A stretch of 7,609 bases of DNA from Peptostreptococcaceae bacterium (lineage in GTDB: Bacteria; Bacillota_A; Clostridia; Peptostreptococcales; Acidaminobacteraceae): assembly GCA_013619035.1 (NCBI GenBank), contig JABXKX010000443.1, positions 1-7,609 of the forward strand, in the 5' to 3' direction. The translations under genes and the position numbers were made by a program. Of the stretch, positions 2,105 to 6,003 are shown in pieces (positions within the stretch are counted from its first letter, which is position 1; each line of letters opens with the position of its first letter). The notes under the pieces were generated by a model. That model made no database searches and was not told where the DNA came from. It saw nothing but the letters and a program-made list of their open reading frames with translations.

Positions 2105-3034
2105 CTAATAGTACTTCTTACCAGCGTCAATTAATGCTTGATTAATATCTTCCTTCATACTGATTACAGCTTCTTTAGCTGCTGTTTTATAATCTTTGTC
2201 ACTTTTTAGGTAAGCAAATATAATACCTCTAGATGAATTAACAATTGCTCCGAGTCCATCGTTGTTAAAACAATTTACAATATCTTTTCCTGTTGCTCCT
2301 TGAGCACCATAACCTGGTACAAGGAAATACGAGTTAGGCATTACTGTTCTTAATAAGTCTGCTTCTTCTGGGAATGTTGCTCCAACCACTGCACCTATTG
2401 GTGAATAACCGCAAGTATCAATCGTTTGTTGACTCCATGCATCAACTAATTCTCCAACCTTTTGGTAAATAGTCTCTCCATCTACAGTAAGATTTTGCAA
2501 TTGTTCCGAACTTTTATTTGATGTTTTAACCAACACCCACATACCTTTATCGTATGTTTTGATATCTTCAACAAACTCTTTTAAACAGTCATCTCCTAAA
2601 TAAGGATTTACGGTCACAGAATCCGAGAAGAAAGCCGACACTTTTTTACCATTTATATCTGTTAAGCCAAGGTGAGCATCTGAGTAAGCTTTAGATGTCG
2701 AACCAATATCACCTCTTTTGATATCAGCAATAACATGAAGACCTTTTTCCTTAGCATAATCACAAGCATCTTTATAAGCAATCAATCCCTCTATACCATA
2801 CTTTTCATAAAAAGCAATCTGTGGCTTTACTGCTGGCACTAAATCAGAGACCGCATCGATAATTCCTCTATTAAATTCTATGAAAGAATGTTTCACAGCT
2901 TCAAGAGTTTCACCATATTTTTCAAAGTATTTATTCTTTACTTCTTCAGGTATTTGTTCTATTCTAGGATCTAATCCTACAACAATCGGACTTTGTTTCT
3001 TAATGATACCTTCTACTAACTTATTAATTGACAT
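2105..3034 (-). CDS. pyrF: Orotidine-5'-phosphate decarboxylase, long (type 2) PyrF
   Basis: Converts OMP to UMP, the last step of UMP synthesis, in the cytosol. At 309 aa it belongs to the long subfamily found in clostridia, actinobacteria and myxobacteria rather than the roughly 240-aa Bacillus/E. coli type. Motifs in order: VVGLDPR (18-24), VKPQIAFYEKYG (69-80), the catalytic ADIKRGDIGST (103-113) holding the Asp-Lys-Asp charge network (D104, K106, D109), the phosphate-binding VPGYGAQGATG (239-249) and VNSSRGI (265-271). All key residues are present. The ATG lies 2 bases after the pyrC stop; its AGGAGG ribosome binding site is formed by the last two sense codons of pyrC, so its translation is probably coupled to pyrC. 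Confidence 0.95.
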   Translation of the reverse strand: MSINKLVEGIIKKQSPIVVGLDPRIEQIPEEVKNKYFEKYGETLEAVKHSFIEFNRGIIDAVSDLVPAVKPQIAFYEKYGIEGLIAYKDACDYAKEKGLHVIADIKRGDIGSTSKAYSDAHLGLTDINGKKVSAFFSDSVTVNPYLGDDCLKEFVEDIKTYDKGMWVLVKTSNKSSEQLQNLTVDGETIYQKVGELVDAWSQQTIDTCGYSPIGAVVGATFPEEADLLRTVMPNSYFLVPGYGAQGATGKDIVNCFNNDGLGAIVNSSRGIIFAYLKSDKDYKTAAKEAVISMKEDINQALIDAGKKYY

Positions 3035-3036
3035 AC

Positions 3037-4311
3037 TTACCTCCTATATACTATTTCACCATTTACTAATGTATACTCAATTACACCACTTACTTCAAAC
3101 CCGTTAAACGGTGTATTTTTTCCTTTTGAATAAAACTCTTTAGAATCAATTGTATAATTCTTGTTCAAATCAATAATTGTGAGATCTGCACACTTGCCAA
3201 CAGAAATATCACCAACATCTTTTCTAATGATTTTTGCAGGTACTGTACTCATCATCTCAATCAATCTATTTAATGTAATCACATTTGATTTAACTAAATA
3301 AGTATAAGACAATGCAAATGAGGTCTCTATTCCACTAATACCAAAAGCAGCCTTCTCATAAGCAACTTTTTTTGTTGCATCTTCATGAGGTGCGTGATCT
3401 GTCACAATACAATCAATATGACCTTCTTTTATACATTCTATCATATAGTCTCTATCAACCACACTTCTAATAGGCGGATTCACTTTTGTATAAGCATCCT
3501 CTTTTTCAACAATATCATCTGTTAAGATAAAGTGATGAGGACATATTTCAACAGTTACATTTACACCTTCTGCTTTACTCTTAACAATATGCTCCATCGA
3601 TTCTTTTGTACTGATATGACATATGTGAAGTCTTGAATCCGTTTCTTTACATAAATCGATATCTCTTTTTACTATATTAGATTCTGCTAAGTTGGGTATG
3701 CCAATAAGACCTAGTTCTTTACTTCTAGTCCCTTCATTCATACAACCATACTTAGCCAATTCGTCATCTTCTGTATGAGCCATTAAAACCAAGTCATTTT
3801 TTTTGATCTGTCTAAAAGCTTCTTTCATTATTTCTAAACTTGGTGTCGTTCTACCGTCGTCAGATACCGATACAATACCAGCATCCATCAACTCATCTAA
3901 TGGTGTAATCTCATTGCCTGAAATATCTTTTGTAATAGCACCCGCTATTTCCACTCTTGAAAAACCAGCTTTTTTATTTTGAGCTTGAATTAATTCTACA
4001 ACCTCTTTAGAATGTATCGCTGGTTTCGTGTTTGGCATGCAAACAACGGTTGTTACACCACCAGCTGATGCTGCTTGAGTACCAGTTTGAATCGTTTCTT
4101 TATCTTCAAATCCAGGTTCTCTTAAATGTACATGCAAATCAACAAATCCAGGACTTACAAGTTTGCCTGTTGCATCAATTATATGTTCAAAATTACCTTC
4201 AATGTGAGTTTCTATTTTTTCAACTTTACCATCTGTAATCAAAATATCTGTAATTTCATTTAACTGTGTTGCAGGATTAATCACATGTCCGTTTTTAATT
4301 AATGTACTCAT
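3037..4311 (-). CDS. pyrC: Dihydroorotase, class I PyrC
   Basis: Zinc amidohydrolase that cyclises carbamoyl-L-aspartate to dihydroorotate in the cytosol. At 424 aa it matches class I (Bacillus-type) enzymes. Metal and catalytic residues visible: DLHVHLREPG (H60, H62), bridging-type Asp152 in SDDGR, His179 in AHTED, His232 in CHIST, and Asp305/His309 in TDHAPHE. NPPIR (278-282) is the substrate-loop region, and the C-terminal GKCADLTIID closes the composite beta-sandwich. The frame stays open 21 codons upstream to a TTG at 4374, but that extension would be translated from the terminator hairpin. The ATG at 4311 has an AGGAGG ribosome binding site at 4315-4321 and begins MSTLIKNG, as homologues do. 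It is the first gene of the minus-strand operon and sits behind an attenuator (4325-4354). Confidence 0.96.
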   Translation of the reverse strand: MSTLIKNGHVINPATQLNEITDILITDGKVEKIETHIEGNFEHIIDATGKLVSPGFVDLHVHLREPGFEDKETIQTGTQAASAGGVTTVVCMPNTKPAIHSKEVVELIQAQNKKAGFSRVEIAGAITKDISGNEITPLDELMDAGIVSVSDDGRTTPSLEIMKEAFRQIKKNDLVLMAHTEDDELAKYGCMNEGTRSKELGLIGIPNLAESNIVKRDIDLCKETDSRLHICHISTKESMEHIVKSKAEGVNVTVEICPHHFILTDDIVEKEDAYTKVNPPIRSVVDRDYMIECIKEGHIDCIVTDHAPHEDATKKVAYEKAAFGISGIETSFALSYTYLVKSNVITLNRLIEMMSTVPAKIIRKDVGDISVGKCADLTIIDLNKNYTIDSKEFYSKGKNTPFNGFEVSGVIEYTLVNGEIVYRR

Positions 4312-4324
4312 TATTCCTCCTAAC

Positions 4325-4354
4325 AAAAAAGCCTTCTTATGGGCATAAGAAGGC
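4325..4354 (-). terminator. Leader terminator (attenuator) upstream of pyrC
   Basis: On the minus strand a perfect 10-bp stem, GCCTTCTTAT/ATAAGAAGGC, closes a GCCC loop and is followed by six T residues. It lies between the pyrC promoter and the pyrC ribosome binding site, so full-length operon transcription requires read-through. A competing 7-bp antiterminator helix can be drawn between GGAAGGT (4384-4390) and the hairpin's 5' arm GCCTTCT (4348-4354), with G-U wobbles at both ends. This is a classic attenuation layout. Confidence 0.85.
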
Positions 4355-4378
4355 GTAGAATCCGTAGAATTCAATCAT
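4337..4378 (-). CDS. Putative pyrC leader peptide, 13 aa, overlapping the attenuator
   Basis: This short frame encodes MIEFYGFYAFLCP. It starts with ATG (4376-4378) preceded by GGAAGG, a moderate ribosome binding site 6 bases upstream. Its TAA (4337-4339) lies in the first bases of the 3' arm of the terminator hairpin, so a translating ribosome would necessarily open that hairpin. Five of 13 residues are Phe or Tyr, encoded by UUC and UAC, within a 9-base tandem repeat (FYG-FYA). The design resembles the E. coli pyrBI leader, where ribosome and polymerase coupling senses UTP. Translation is inferred, not proven; the frame could be accidental. Confidence 0.45.
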   Translation of the reverse strand: MIEFYGFYAFLCP

Positions 4379-4383
4379 AACTT

Positions 4384-4400
4384 ACCTTCCAAGTCTCTCG
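4384..4400 (-). promoter_or_regulatory. Degenerate PyrR-loop-like element / antiterminator arm in the pyrC leader
   Basis: The minus strand reads CGAGAGACTTGGAAGGT. It resembles the PyrR loop core of the pyrB leader (CGAGAGGTTGAAAAGGT), and the distance from GAGAG to the next ATG is the same (16 bases). The closing lower stem seen in pyrB cannot be formed here, and the core GAGG reads GAGA, so PyrR binding is doubtful. GGAAGGT also serves as the 5' arm of the proposed antiterminator. Confidence 0.3.
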
Positions 4401-4427
4401 TACTTATTTAAAGGTTCTATTGTTCAA

Positions 4428-4499: not shown

Positions 4500-4525
4500 G
4501 AAGCCAATAAAATATATACCTTTAA

Positions 4526-4553
4526 CTCGACCCGAGAGGTTGAAAAGGTCTAG
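4526..4553 (+). promoter_or_regulatory. PyrR-binding loop (anti-antiterminator) of the pyrB leader
   Basis: The RNA contains GACCCGAGAGGTTGAAAAGGTC (4529-4550, ends paired). It fits the PyrR-binding consensus core, NGNGAGGYU, flanked by CC and GG. The lower stem GACC/GGTC differs in sequence from the usual Bacillus stem but keeps the pairing, a compensatory change. In Bacillus, UMP-bound PyrR stabilises this hairpin, blocks the antiterminator and lets the terminator form. I infer the same negative control here, with pyrR encoded elsewhere. Confidence 0.75.
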
Positions 4554-4584
4554 CATGATATCTTTTGGATAACTAGGTCTTTTC
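4542..4584 (+). promoter_or_regulatory. Antiterminator helix of the pyrB leader
   Basis: GAAAAGGTCTAG (4542-4553) pairs over 12 consecutive positions with CTAGGTCTTTTC (4573-4584), including two G-U wobbles. Its 5' strand uses the 3' half of the PyrR loop and its 3' strand uses the 5' arm of the terminator. It is therefore mutually exclusive with both, as in PyrR-type attenuators. The 19-base loop contains a five-codon frame, MISFG-stop (4555-4572). Confidence 0.75.
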
Positions 4585-4604
4585 GTGTAGAAAAGACTTT
4601 TTTT
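4577..4604 (+). terminator. Leader terminator (attenuator) upstream of pyrB
   Basis: A perfect 8-bp stem GTCTTTTC/GAAAAGAC with a GTGTA loop is followed by seven T residues. It lies 33 bases before the pyrB start, between promoter and gene. Together with the overlapping antiterminator and PyrR loop it forms a complete three-structure attenuator. Confidence 0.88.
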
Positions 4605-4637
4605 ATTGCAAAGATAGTATCCATAGGAGGAGATAAA

Positions 4638-5582
4638 ATGAATCACTCAAGTTTAAGACATTTAATTGAGCCGGAAGATTTTACTAAAGAGGAAATCTTA
4701 AAAGTAGTAGAACTCGGGGAGGATATGTATAACAACCCATCAAAATACAGTGATATCTGTAATGGTAAGATCCTAGCTTCTTTATTCTATGAACCAAGCA
4801 CAAGAACAAAATTTAGTTTTGATTCAGCAATGTTAAGATTAGGTGGTAACTTAATTGGATTTGCTGATGCCAATACAAGTTCTGCTAAAAAAGGTGAAAG
4901 TATTGCTGATACCATTAGGGTTATGGGATACTATGCAGATATTATCGTAATGAGACATCCAAAAGAAGGTGCTCCTAAATTAGCTTCAATGTATTCTGAA
5001 GTACCAGTTATCAACGCTGGAGATGGCGGACACCAACATCCAACACAAACATTAACTGACTTACTAACAATAAAAGTATATAAAGGTCAATTAGAAAATC
5101 ATACAATTGCTTTCTGTGGCGACTTAAAATACGGTCGTACGGTACATTCACTAATTAGAACTATGGCAAGATTTAATGCTAAGAAGTTCATTCTAATTTC
5201 TCCAGAAGAATTACAATTACCTTCTTCATTAAAAAGACAACTTCTAGATCAATACGATATTGAAATTGAAGAAGTAAGATACTTAGAAGAAGTGGTAGAG
5301 CAAATTGATATTCTATATATGACTAGAATTCAGAAAGAAAGATTCTTTAACGAAGAAGATTATTTAAAACTAAAGAACTCTTACATTTTAACAAATGATA
5401 AATTGGAAAATGCAAAAGAAGACATGATTATCATGCATCCACTACCAAGAGTTAATGAAATTTCATATGAAGTAGATGATAACAAACGCGCTGTATACTT
5501 TGAACAATCAAAAATAGGGGTATACGTAAGAATGGCATTGATTTCGAAATTATTGGAGGTGGGACCATATGTTAGAGGTTAA
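4638..5582 (+). CDS. pyrB: Aspartate carbamoyltransferase catalytic subunit PyrB
   Basis: Condenses carbamoyl phosphate and L-aspartate to carbamoyl-aspartate, the committed step of pyrimidine synthesis. The 314-aa length is typical. Carbamoyl-phosphate residues are in [11 protein letters not shown] (51-61, STRT at 54-57) and HPTQ (134-137). SSAKKGES (81-88) is the swinging loop that supplies Ser and Lys to the neighbouring active site of the trimer. The aspartate domain has [10 protein letters not shown] (227-236) and MHPLPR (266-271). AGGAGG at 4625-4630 places the ATG well. The gene overlaps pyrI by 14 bases, so catalytic and regulatory chains are probably made in a coupled ratio, forming an E. 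coli-like c6r6 holoenzyme. Expression depends on the leader attenuator. Confidence 0.97.
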
Positions 5583-6003
5583 AGGTATTTTAAACGGTGT
5601 AGTACTTGATCATATCAAAGCAGGAAAAGGACTTGAAGTTTTCCATATGCTTAAGCTGAATAAAATTGATGCCCCAGTGGTTTTATTAATGAATGTCGGC
5701 AGTAAAGAGTTAGGAAAGAAAGACATCATCAAAATTGAAGATAAAGTAGATTTCAACTTCGATATCCTATCACTAATCGATACACATATCACGGTAAATA
5801 TCATCAAGAATGACAAAAGAGTTGAAAAGTTTACTGTAGAAGTACCAGAAGAAATTATCGGGCATATTGAATGTAAAAATCCTAGATGTATCACTAATTT
5901 TGATGATTACGTTAATCCAACTTTCCATAAATTTGCTGAAAATGATAAAGTATTAGAATATGTTTGTAGCTTCTGTGAGGAAATCACAAAGTTCAAAAAA
6001 TAA
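5569..6003 (+). CDS. pyrI: Aspartate carbamoyltransferase regulatory subunit PyrI
   Basis: Regulatory chain that binds nucleotides and transmits ATP activation and CTP/UTP inhibition to PyrB. At 144 aa it is slightly shorter than E. coli PyrI (about 153). The N-terminal allosteric domain has the nucleotide-site Asp-His pair in VVLDHIKAG (D14, H15) and KIED, with a Lys (K56) matching the E. coli effector-site lysine. The C-terminal zinc domain has Cys102, Cys107, Cys133 and Cys136 (C-x4-C...C-x2-C), the structural zinc site that contacts the catalytic chain. The GGAGGT ribosome binding site lies inside the end of pyrB, 8 bases before the ATG. A terminator follows 3 bases after the stop, making pyrBI a two-gene operon. 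Confidence 0.95.

Follow-up and report, generated by a model that had tools for sequence, protein, structure and literature searches.

Divergent pyrimidine leaders of a Peptostreptococcaceae bacterium as probable PyrR attenuators, and start codons beside the PyrR loop in related Clostridia

Introduction

In the pyr attenuators of Bacillus subtilis, an antiterminator formed with an arm of the PyrR-binding loop is followed by a terminator and by the pyr genes. In mycobacteria, PyrR represses translation through a loop that overlaps the ribosome-binding site at the start of the pyr operon, and no terminator is known there. The UTP-dependent attenuation of Escherichia coli pyrBI is not known to involve PyrR or an RNA antiterminator. 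The Bacillota are often regarded as organisms whose transcription and translation are uncoupled. The PyrR loop acts as an anti-antiterminator in the known PyrR mechanism, as described in the available part of one source (PMC4347634). Leader peptides in the Firmicutes (hisS) have been discussed in a text that also cites PyrR, the two subjects not being joined in its accessible part (PMC2965389), and the PyrR motif is only listed in the available part of another (PMC3766115). Among the open-licence papers listed, as judged by titles, opening lines of abstracts and passages from three of them, none connects a leader ORF with a PyrR loop.

The locus considered here lies in a stretch of 7,609 nucleotides from a Peptostreptococcaceae bacterium, the whole of which is called the window. 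Its leaders resemble the B. subtilis PyrR attenuators (RF00515) in the loop CCUUUAA...GAGA...AAGG, the likely anti-antiterminator, and in the succession of an antiterminator drawn from the 3′ arm of the loop, a terminator, and downstream pyr genes. They differ from them in the loop sequence, which is CGAGA and thus one base shorter than the RF00515 consensus CAGAGA, in the back-to-back arrangement of two divergent leaders, and in the start codon found near the loop in the family of the window. The overlap of the PyrR loop with a ribosome-binding site resembles the mycobacterial repression, but in the window the loop is followed by a terminator, and it is a leader ORF that would be translated from the site. 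A short ORF overlapping the terminator upstream of pyr genes is shared with E. coli pyrBI, whereas the window has a PyrR loop and an antiterminator, and its ORF is not conserved.

Results

Two divergent operons for pyrimidine synthesis are present in the window. The minus strand carries pyrC-pyrF-pyrK-pyrD and the plus strand pyrB-pyrI, and in the intergenic region there are two leaders pointing away from each other. The minus-strand genes encode dihydroorotase (pyrC, 3037–4311; TIGR00857, 413 bits), orotidine-5′-phosphate decarboxylase (pyrF, 2105–3034; TIGR02127, 274 bits), the dihydroorotate dehydrogenase electron transfer subunit (pyrK, 1313–2095; NF000798, 228 bits) and dihydroorotate dehydrogenase (pyrD, 403–1323; NF005574, 439 bits). 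The plus-strand genes encode the catalytic subunit of aspartate carbamoyltransferase (pyrB, 4638–5582; TIGR00670, 362 bits) and its regulatory subunit (pyrI, 5569–6003; NF002063, 165 bits, slightly below the cut-off of 171 bits). A TTG-start ORF at 4374–3037 of the minus strand reads in frame through the pyrC terminator into pyrC, and the leader ATG of L002, L142, L145, L148 and L154 likewise reads in frame into pyrC. An N-terminal extension of PyrC from this TTG is left as a minor possibility, because pyrC has its own Shine-Dalgarno sequence, GGAGG, at 4316–4320 (minus strand).

In each leader, the match to RF00515 covers all 115 model positions. That of the pyrC leader (4418–4322, minus strand) scores 41.1 bits with an E value of 0.0039, and that of the pyrBI leader (4515–4607, plus strand) 38.2 bits with an E value of 0.014. 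Neither reaches the gathering score (54 bits), probably owing in part to the loop sequence, which is CGAGA in place of the consensus CAGAGA. This replacement is found in the loops 4385–4414 and 4519–4548 and equally in the other near-family pyr leaders collected, to which form of loop PyrR may have become co-adapted.

The pyrC leader RNA is predicted to fold (−24.2 kcal/mol, z −2.5) into the PyrR-binding loop, a small central hairpin and the terminator. The loop, or anti-antiterminator (CCUUUAAAUAAGUACGAGAGACUUGGAAGG; 4385–4414, minus strand), is indicated by the RF00515 match and by the hairpin fold; the small hairpin GAAUUC-UAC-GGAUUC (4358–4372, minus strand), taken from the minimum free energy fold, stands between the loop and the terminator. 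The terminator hairpin, GCCUUCUUAU-GCCC-AUAAGAAGGC (4331–4354, minus strand), was located by hairpin score and fold, and with the following run of six U residues (4325–4330, minus strand) it forms an intrinsic terminator ahead of pyrC. Within the hairpin, GCCUUCU (4348–4354, minus strand) is the alternative partner of GGAAGGU (4390–4384), and the resulting antiterminator of 7 bp has a stability of −9.4 to −9.5 kcal/mol, no stronger in the window than that of shuffles of the same bases (z −0.2). The divergent pyrBI leader has its PyrR-binding loop at 4519–4548 (plus strand; RF00515 match), a terminator hairpin at 4575–4599 (plus strand), read from the sequence and with a matching hairpin scored in the related leader L002, and an antiterminator of −9.3 kcal/mol (z −1.6).

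Related genomes support the assignment of these leaders to the PyrR element. The pyrC and pyrB leaders are the best two RF00515 matches in each of the two nearest genomes, where they too score below the gathering value, and pyrR was found above its curated cut-off in both of these genomes. Beyond these two, pyrR was above the cut-off in 19 of 19 genomes, the copy in G123 having an internal stop; a third close genome, G003, also carries the gene. The pyrC-type loop pattern, searched with one mismatch allowed, matched 29 of 393 related genomes, against none of the 393 for a reversed control pattern. Pairing between the loop 3′ arm and the terminator 5′ arm was stronger than in shuffles for the near-family pyrC leaders (mean z −2.4, n = 12; of the 13 leaders, L081 was left out for its weak terminator) and for the near-family pyrB leaders (mean z −1.7, n = 6). 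The segment upstream that pairs best with the terminator arm has its end 0–9 nt past that of the PyrR loop in 11 of these 12 pyrC leaders, L034 being the exception, and across the 12 the stability of the best upstream pairing averages 0.95 of that of the terminator itself.

An earlier note on this DNA had described a 13-residue leader peptide frame ahead of pyrC, and this frame, a candidate ORF encoding MIEFYGFYAFLCP and then a stop, does exist at 4378–4337 of the minus strand (ATG ATT GAA TTC TAC GGA TTC TAC GCC TTC TTA TGC CCA TAA). As had been described, its stop codon (4339–4337) falls early in the 3′ arm of the hairpin 4354–4331, UUC and UAC make up five of the 13 codons, and the frame is rich in pyrimidines; their share is 60%, versus 43% over roughly the first 300 nt of pyrC. 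The ribosome binding site is weaker than had been supposed: AAGG (4385–4388, minus strand), which precedes the ATG by 6 nt, is the only Shine-Dalgarno-like sequence for the ORF, and at the base of the pyrC-leader loop it doubles as part of the 3′ arm. When the 30-nt spacer was shuffled by single bases with the hairpin retained, an ATG frame ending in the hairpin arose in 5.0% of 20000 shuffles and one running beyond it in a further 11.6%.

Comparison with relatives, the check that had been proposed for this frame, did not bear out its conservation. Only three of 61 genomes have a PyrC more than 60% identical to that of the window (96, 77 and 69%), and the PyrR loop and the hairpin are kept in all three of the corresponding leaders, L001, L002 and L012. 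In L001 (PyrC 96%), the leader is unchanged from loop to terminator except for TTATG becoming TAAAG, so that AAG replaces ATG and no ATG, GTG or TTG is left in that frame; L001 comes from a metagenome assembly, and a local assembly error at this site is therefore conceivable. The ATG of L002 (77%) is in a different frame, which reads into pyrC in frame, and that of L012 (69%) is in a frame that stops after the terminator. Loss of the ATG or of the frame beside a retained hairpin is the result that the earlier note had named as refuting its proposal. Several relatives retain the nucleotide sequence UUCUACG where the 5′ arm of the terminator begins, and in L034 and L149 it lies out of the ATG frame.

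At the same time, start codons are concentrated next to the loop in the near family. Among 23 pyrC leaders with the same loop type, 19 have an ATG 2–14 nt past the AAGG of the loop, the others being L141, L146, L153 and L155, of which L155 is the leader of L001. Leaders whose first 45 nt were at least 80% alike were then dropped, a step which removed L001, as a look-alike of the window, and L153, both of them without the ATG; of the 13 distinct leaders that remained, 11 had it, compared with 3.7 ± 1.5 expected from shuffles, none of 300 of which reached 11; in a control interval of 20–32 nt, it was found in one of the 13. ATG is the most enriched trinucleotide beside the loop in this near-family pyrC set, and it ranks second, behind GAT, in other PyrR leaders. 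CCAGA-type leaders overall have the ATG in 16 of 33 cases (10.6 expected), and in the near-family pyrB leaders no clear excess was seen (2 of 6, 1.3 expected). The frames opened in the near family are not conserved, as they end after 2–4 codons (L146, L149, L151 and L152), in the hairpin, or in or after pyrC. Therefore, the start beside the loop may matter, or may once have mattered, in this family, and a defined leader peptide does not.

In other Clostridia with a related loop, an ATG near the loop opens a frame of at least 25 codons in 15 of 18 leaders, where shuffles gave 0.54 ± 0.68 with a maximum of 3. This group was defined by loop 3′ arms ending in CCAGRAAGG or CTAGAAAGG; the near-duplicates L163 and L118 were dropped, and L199 and L200, which are close to each other, were both counted. 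The exceptions are L165 (21 codons), L167 (14 codons) and L184 (no frame; it precedes pyrF). The ORFs of the long group have 28–79 codons, counted from the first ATG used, and all 15 reach or pass the terminator, the hairpins of L195, L200 and L201 being placed by eye. The downstream genes are pyrC or carA, the latter confirmed by family for four. The combination of a PyrR loop, a long leader ORF and a long terminator, lacking the RNA antiterminator and placed ahead of pyrC or carA, was noted in L015, L017, L162–L164, L168, L175, L177–L181, L195 and L199–L203. Many of these leaders have an early U-rich stretch, such as UUUUUGYUGU, which reads FCC, FFCC or FYY. L165 (G195 C2), a shortened leader with a PyrR loop, a truncated ORF and no matched downstream pyr gene, has the look of a relic copy of L168, which the same genome carries.

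The relation of the frames to the terminators was examined in leaders of all kinds. The collection of 108 loops was reduced to 70 distinct leaders, of which 62 had a terminator that could be scored, the terminators being located by our own hairpin score. An ATG at offset 1–14 was found in 37 of the 62. Its frame reaches the terminator in 28 of the 37, compared with 13 for the +1 frame and 9 for the +2 frame, and it stops inside the hairpin in 15 of the 37, compared with 1 and 0; where several ATGs were present, the longest frame was taken, which favours length somewhat. Those 15 comprise ten long-leader cases (ORFs of 29–56 codons), two near-family pyrC leaders (the window and L159) and the three canonical leaders L023, L054 and L206.

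The antiterminator pairing is absent from the long-ORF leaders. Pairing of the loop arm with the terminator arm gave a mean z of +0.5 (n = 14, counted without L200 and L168-type duplicates; in L195 and L201 the terminator was misplaced by the hairpin score), versus −2.9 in canonical leaders (n = 20, leaders with no separate scorable terminator being excluded). No other upstream partner clearly substitutes for it in the long-ORF group, in which the best pairing averages 0.51 of the terminator stability (n = 13, the L195 terminator again being misplaced), compared with 1.06 in canonical leaders (n = 18). Across the 62 leaders, the antiterminator is absent (z > −1) in 13 of the 21 that have an ORF of at least 20 codons reaching the terminator and in 5 of the 41 others (Fisher p 9e-5, uncorrected for kinship). 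The link is not strict, 8 of the 21 keeping the pairing.

Moreover, pyrR was above its cut-off in 16 of 16 genomes of the long-ORF type that were checked, the G123 copy being the one with the internal stop. RF00515 matched five of six long-ORF loci tested, at 36–42 bits and thus below the gathering score; L162 gave no match at E up to 1. The start, the frame and the stop position are what is kept in the long-ORF group, not the sequence. A conserved leader peptide was considered and rejected, since the amino-acid sequence is not visibly constrained even there. Nonsynonymous codons exceed synonymous ones in six of six pairs among L162, L163, L164 and L168, an insertion near the ORF end inflating the nonsynonymous count in the three pairs with L168, and dN/dS is about 0.3, 0.6 and 1.8 in the three computable pairs. 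Between L199 and L200 there are 10 nonsynonymous and 5 synonymous codons, with 7/5/7 changes across the codon positions, and for the L178 peptide no candidate was found in the protein collection. A general rule for PyrR leaders was likewise rejected, as an ORF of at least 25 codons occurs in only 3 of 26 other leaders (0.87 in shuffles). Several strong RF00515 loci have a loop ending in AAAGA and no adjoining start codon.

Discussion

The leaders of pyrC-F-K-D and of the divergent pyrBI operon are quite probably two separate PyrR transcription attenuators, a reading drawn from sequence comparison. With plentiful pyrimidines, PyrR would hold the loop 4414–4385 and prevent GGAAGGU from pairing with GCCUUCU; with the antiterminator thus prevented, the terminator 4354–4331 would form and pyrC would be off. 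When PyrR is unbound, the GGAAGGU:GCCUUCU antiterminator would form and RNA polymerase would read through. The direction of this regulation is presumed from B. subtilis, and binding of PyrR to the one-base-shorter loop is likewise putative. The 13-codon ORF, which sits between the loop and terminator elements, would not be essential to the switch in this organism; the frame exists, it is not conserved, and the switch probably does not need it. A single regulator probably serves both divergent operons, and the split within one intergenic region that the earlier note had envisaged, PyrR for pyrBI and ribosome-coupled sensing for pyrCFKD, thereby falls away, since both leaders match the PyrR element.

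Attenuation of the E. coli pyrBI type, in which UTP-dependent pausing couples the ribosome to the polymerase and PyrR plays no part, had been suggested for pyrC, and an ORF that overlaps the terminator and is 60% pyrimidine speaks for it. This is highly improbable, as a PyrR element and an antiterminator make up the leader, and relatives in which the hairpin persists do not retain the start codon. The claim that pyrC does not follow the PyrR mechanism is not supported, given the match to RF00515 and the retained PyrR-type antiterminator, and PyrR-free ribosome sensing was rejected on these two grounds. Sensing of amino acids through the Phe-Tyr codons can appeal to the five UUC or UAC codons among the 13, but the downstream genes are pyr genes and UUCUACG is out of the ATG frame in L034 and L149; with these codons not kept in frame in relatives, that suggestion is scarcely credible.

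Against the PyrR attenuator reading stand the scores of both leaders below the RF00515 gathering value and the window antiterminator, whose stability does not exceed that of shuffles. The plain PyrR model also leaves the clustering of ATG beside AAGG (11 of 13) unexplained, and this clustering speaks for an arrangement in which the AAGG of a PyrR attenuator loop doubles as a ribosome-binding site for translation of a short leader. PyrR would then hide the site and, with PyrR off, a ribosome starting at the ATG would reach the terminator and add to read-through. The excess over the 3.7 expected, the top rank of ATG among trinucleotides beside the near-family loop, and the 15 of 37 frames, that of the window included, that end in the hairpin against 1 and 0 in shifted frames are all consistent with such a scheme. 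However, the ATG is gone in the closest relative, L001; most of the 15 hairpin-ending leaders belong to the long-ORF group and only two, the window and L159, to the near family; frames vary from leader to leader within the near family; and its pyrB leaders have no clear ATG excess. The RNA antiterminator is also kept, and therefore translation should not be needed for read-through. For the window, we regard this double use of the loop as possible but unlikely, and that translation matters in the window itself as doubtful. The PyrR attenuator with an RNA antiterminator is thus the reading that we prefer for the window.

It is in the other Clostridia that a leader ORF finds support: there, the ORF ends in or beyond the pyr terminator, lying downstream of a PyrR loop and not, as had been proposed, in place of one. 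For this set of organisms, which are related to that of the window, comparison of the leaders makes it reasonably likely that a translated leader has taken the place of the RNA antiterminator in PyrR attenuators. The leader ORF would have its ribosome-binding site in the 3′ arm of the PyrR loop and bound PyrR would hide it; without PyrR, ribosomes would translate the leader and block formation of the terminator. These leaders point to a new variant, with translation of the leader gated by PyrR. If this is true, a protein–RNA switch would, in the Bacillota, hand antitermination to the ribosome and unite PyrR attenuation with leader-ORF attenuation, which are usually presented as alternatives. 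Because the antiterminator is present in some related leaders and absent from others, the change of mechanism is open to direct test. PyrR-gated leader-ORF attenuators of this proposed type would be marked by an ORF of at least 25 codons from loop to terminator and by the lack of an RNA antiterminator; the window ORF has 13 codons and the window keeps GGAAGGU:GCCUUCU, so that it is at most a short hybrid, its frame representing an abbreviated and as yet dispensable version of the long-ORF arrangement.

Additionally, in L016, L019, L022, L027, L028, L032, L034, L087, L089, L147 and L152, and also in L101, the region immediately before the pyrB start has a second PyrR-like loop (A/CCUUUAAnnnGAUnCnGnGnnAUCA..AAGGAGG), which overlaps the Shine-Dalgarno sequence of pyrB; the pattern of this loop had no match in the window, L002 or L012. 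In most carriers, it lies downstream of the first attenuator, which suggests transcriptional plus translational control by PyrR. In L160 (G118), there is one PyrR loop, which continues without a break into the pyrB ribosome-binding site and gene start, and this leader resembles the translational repression of mycobacteria.
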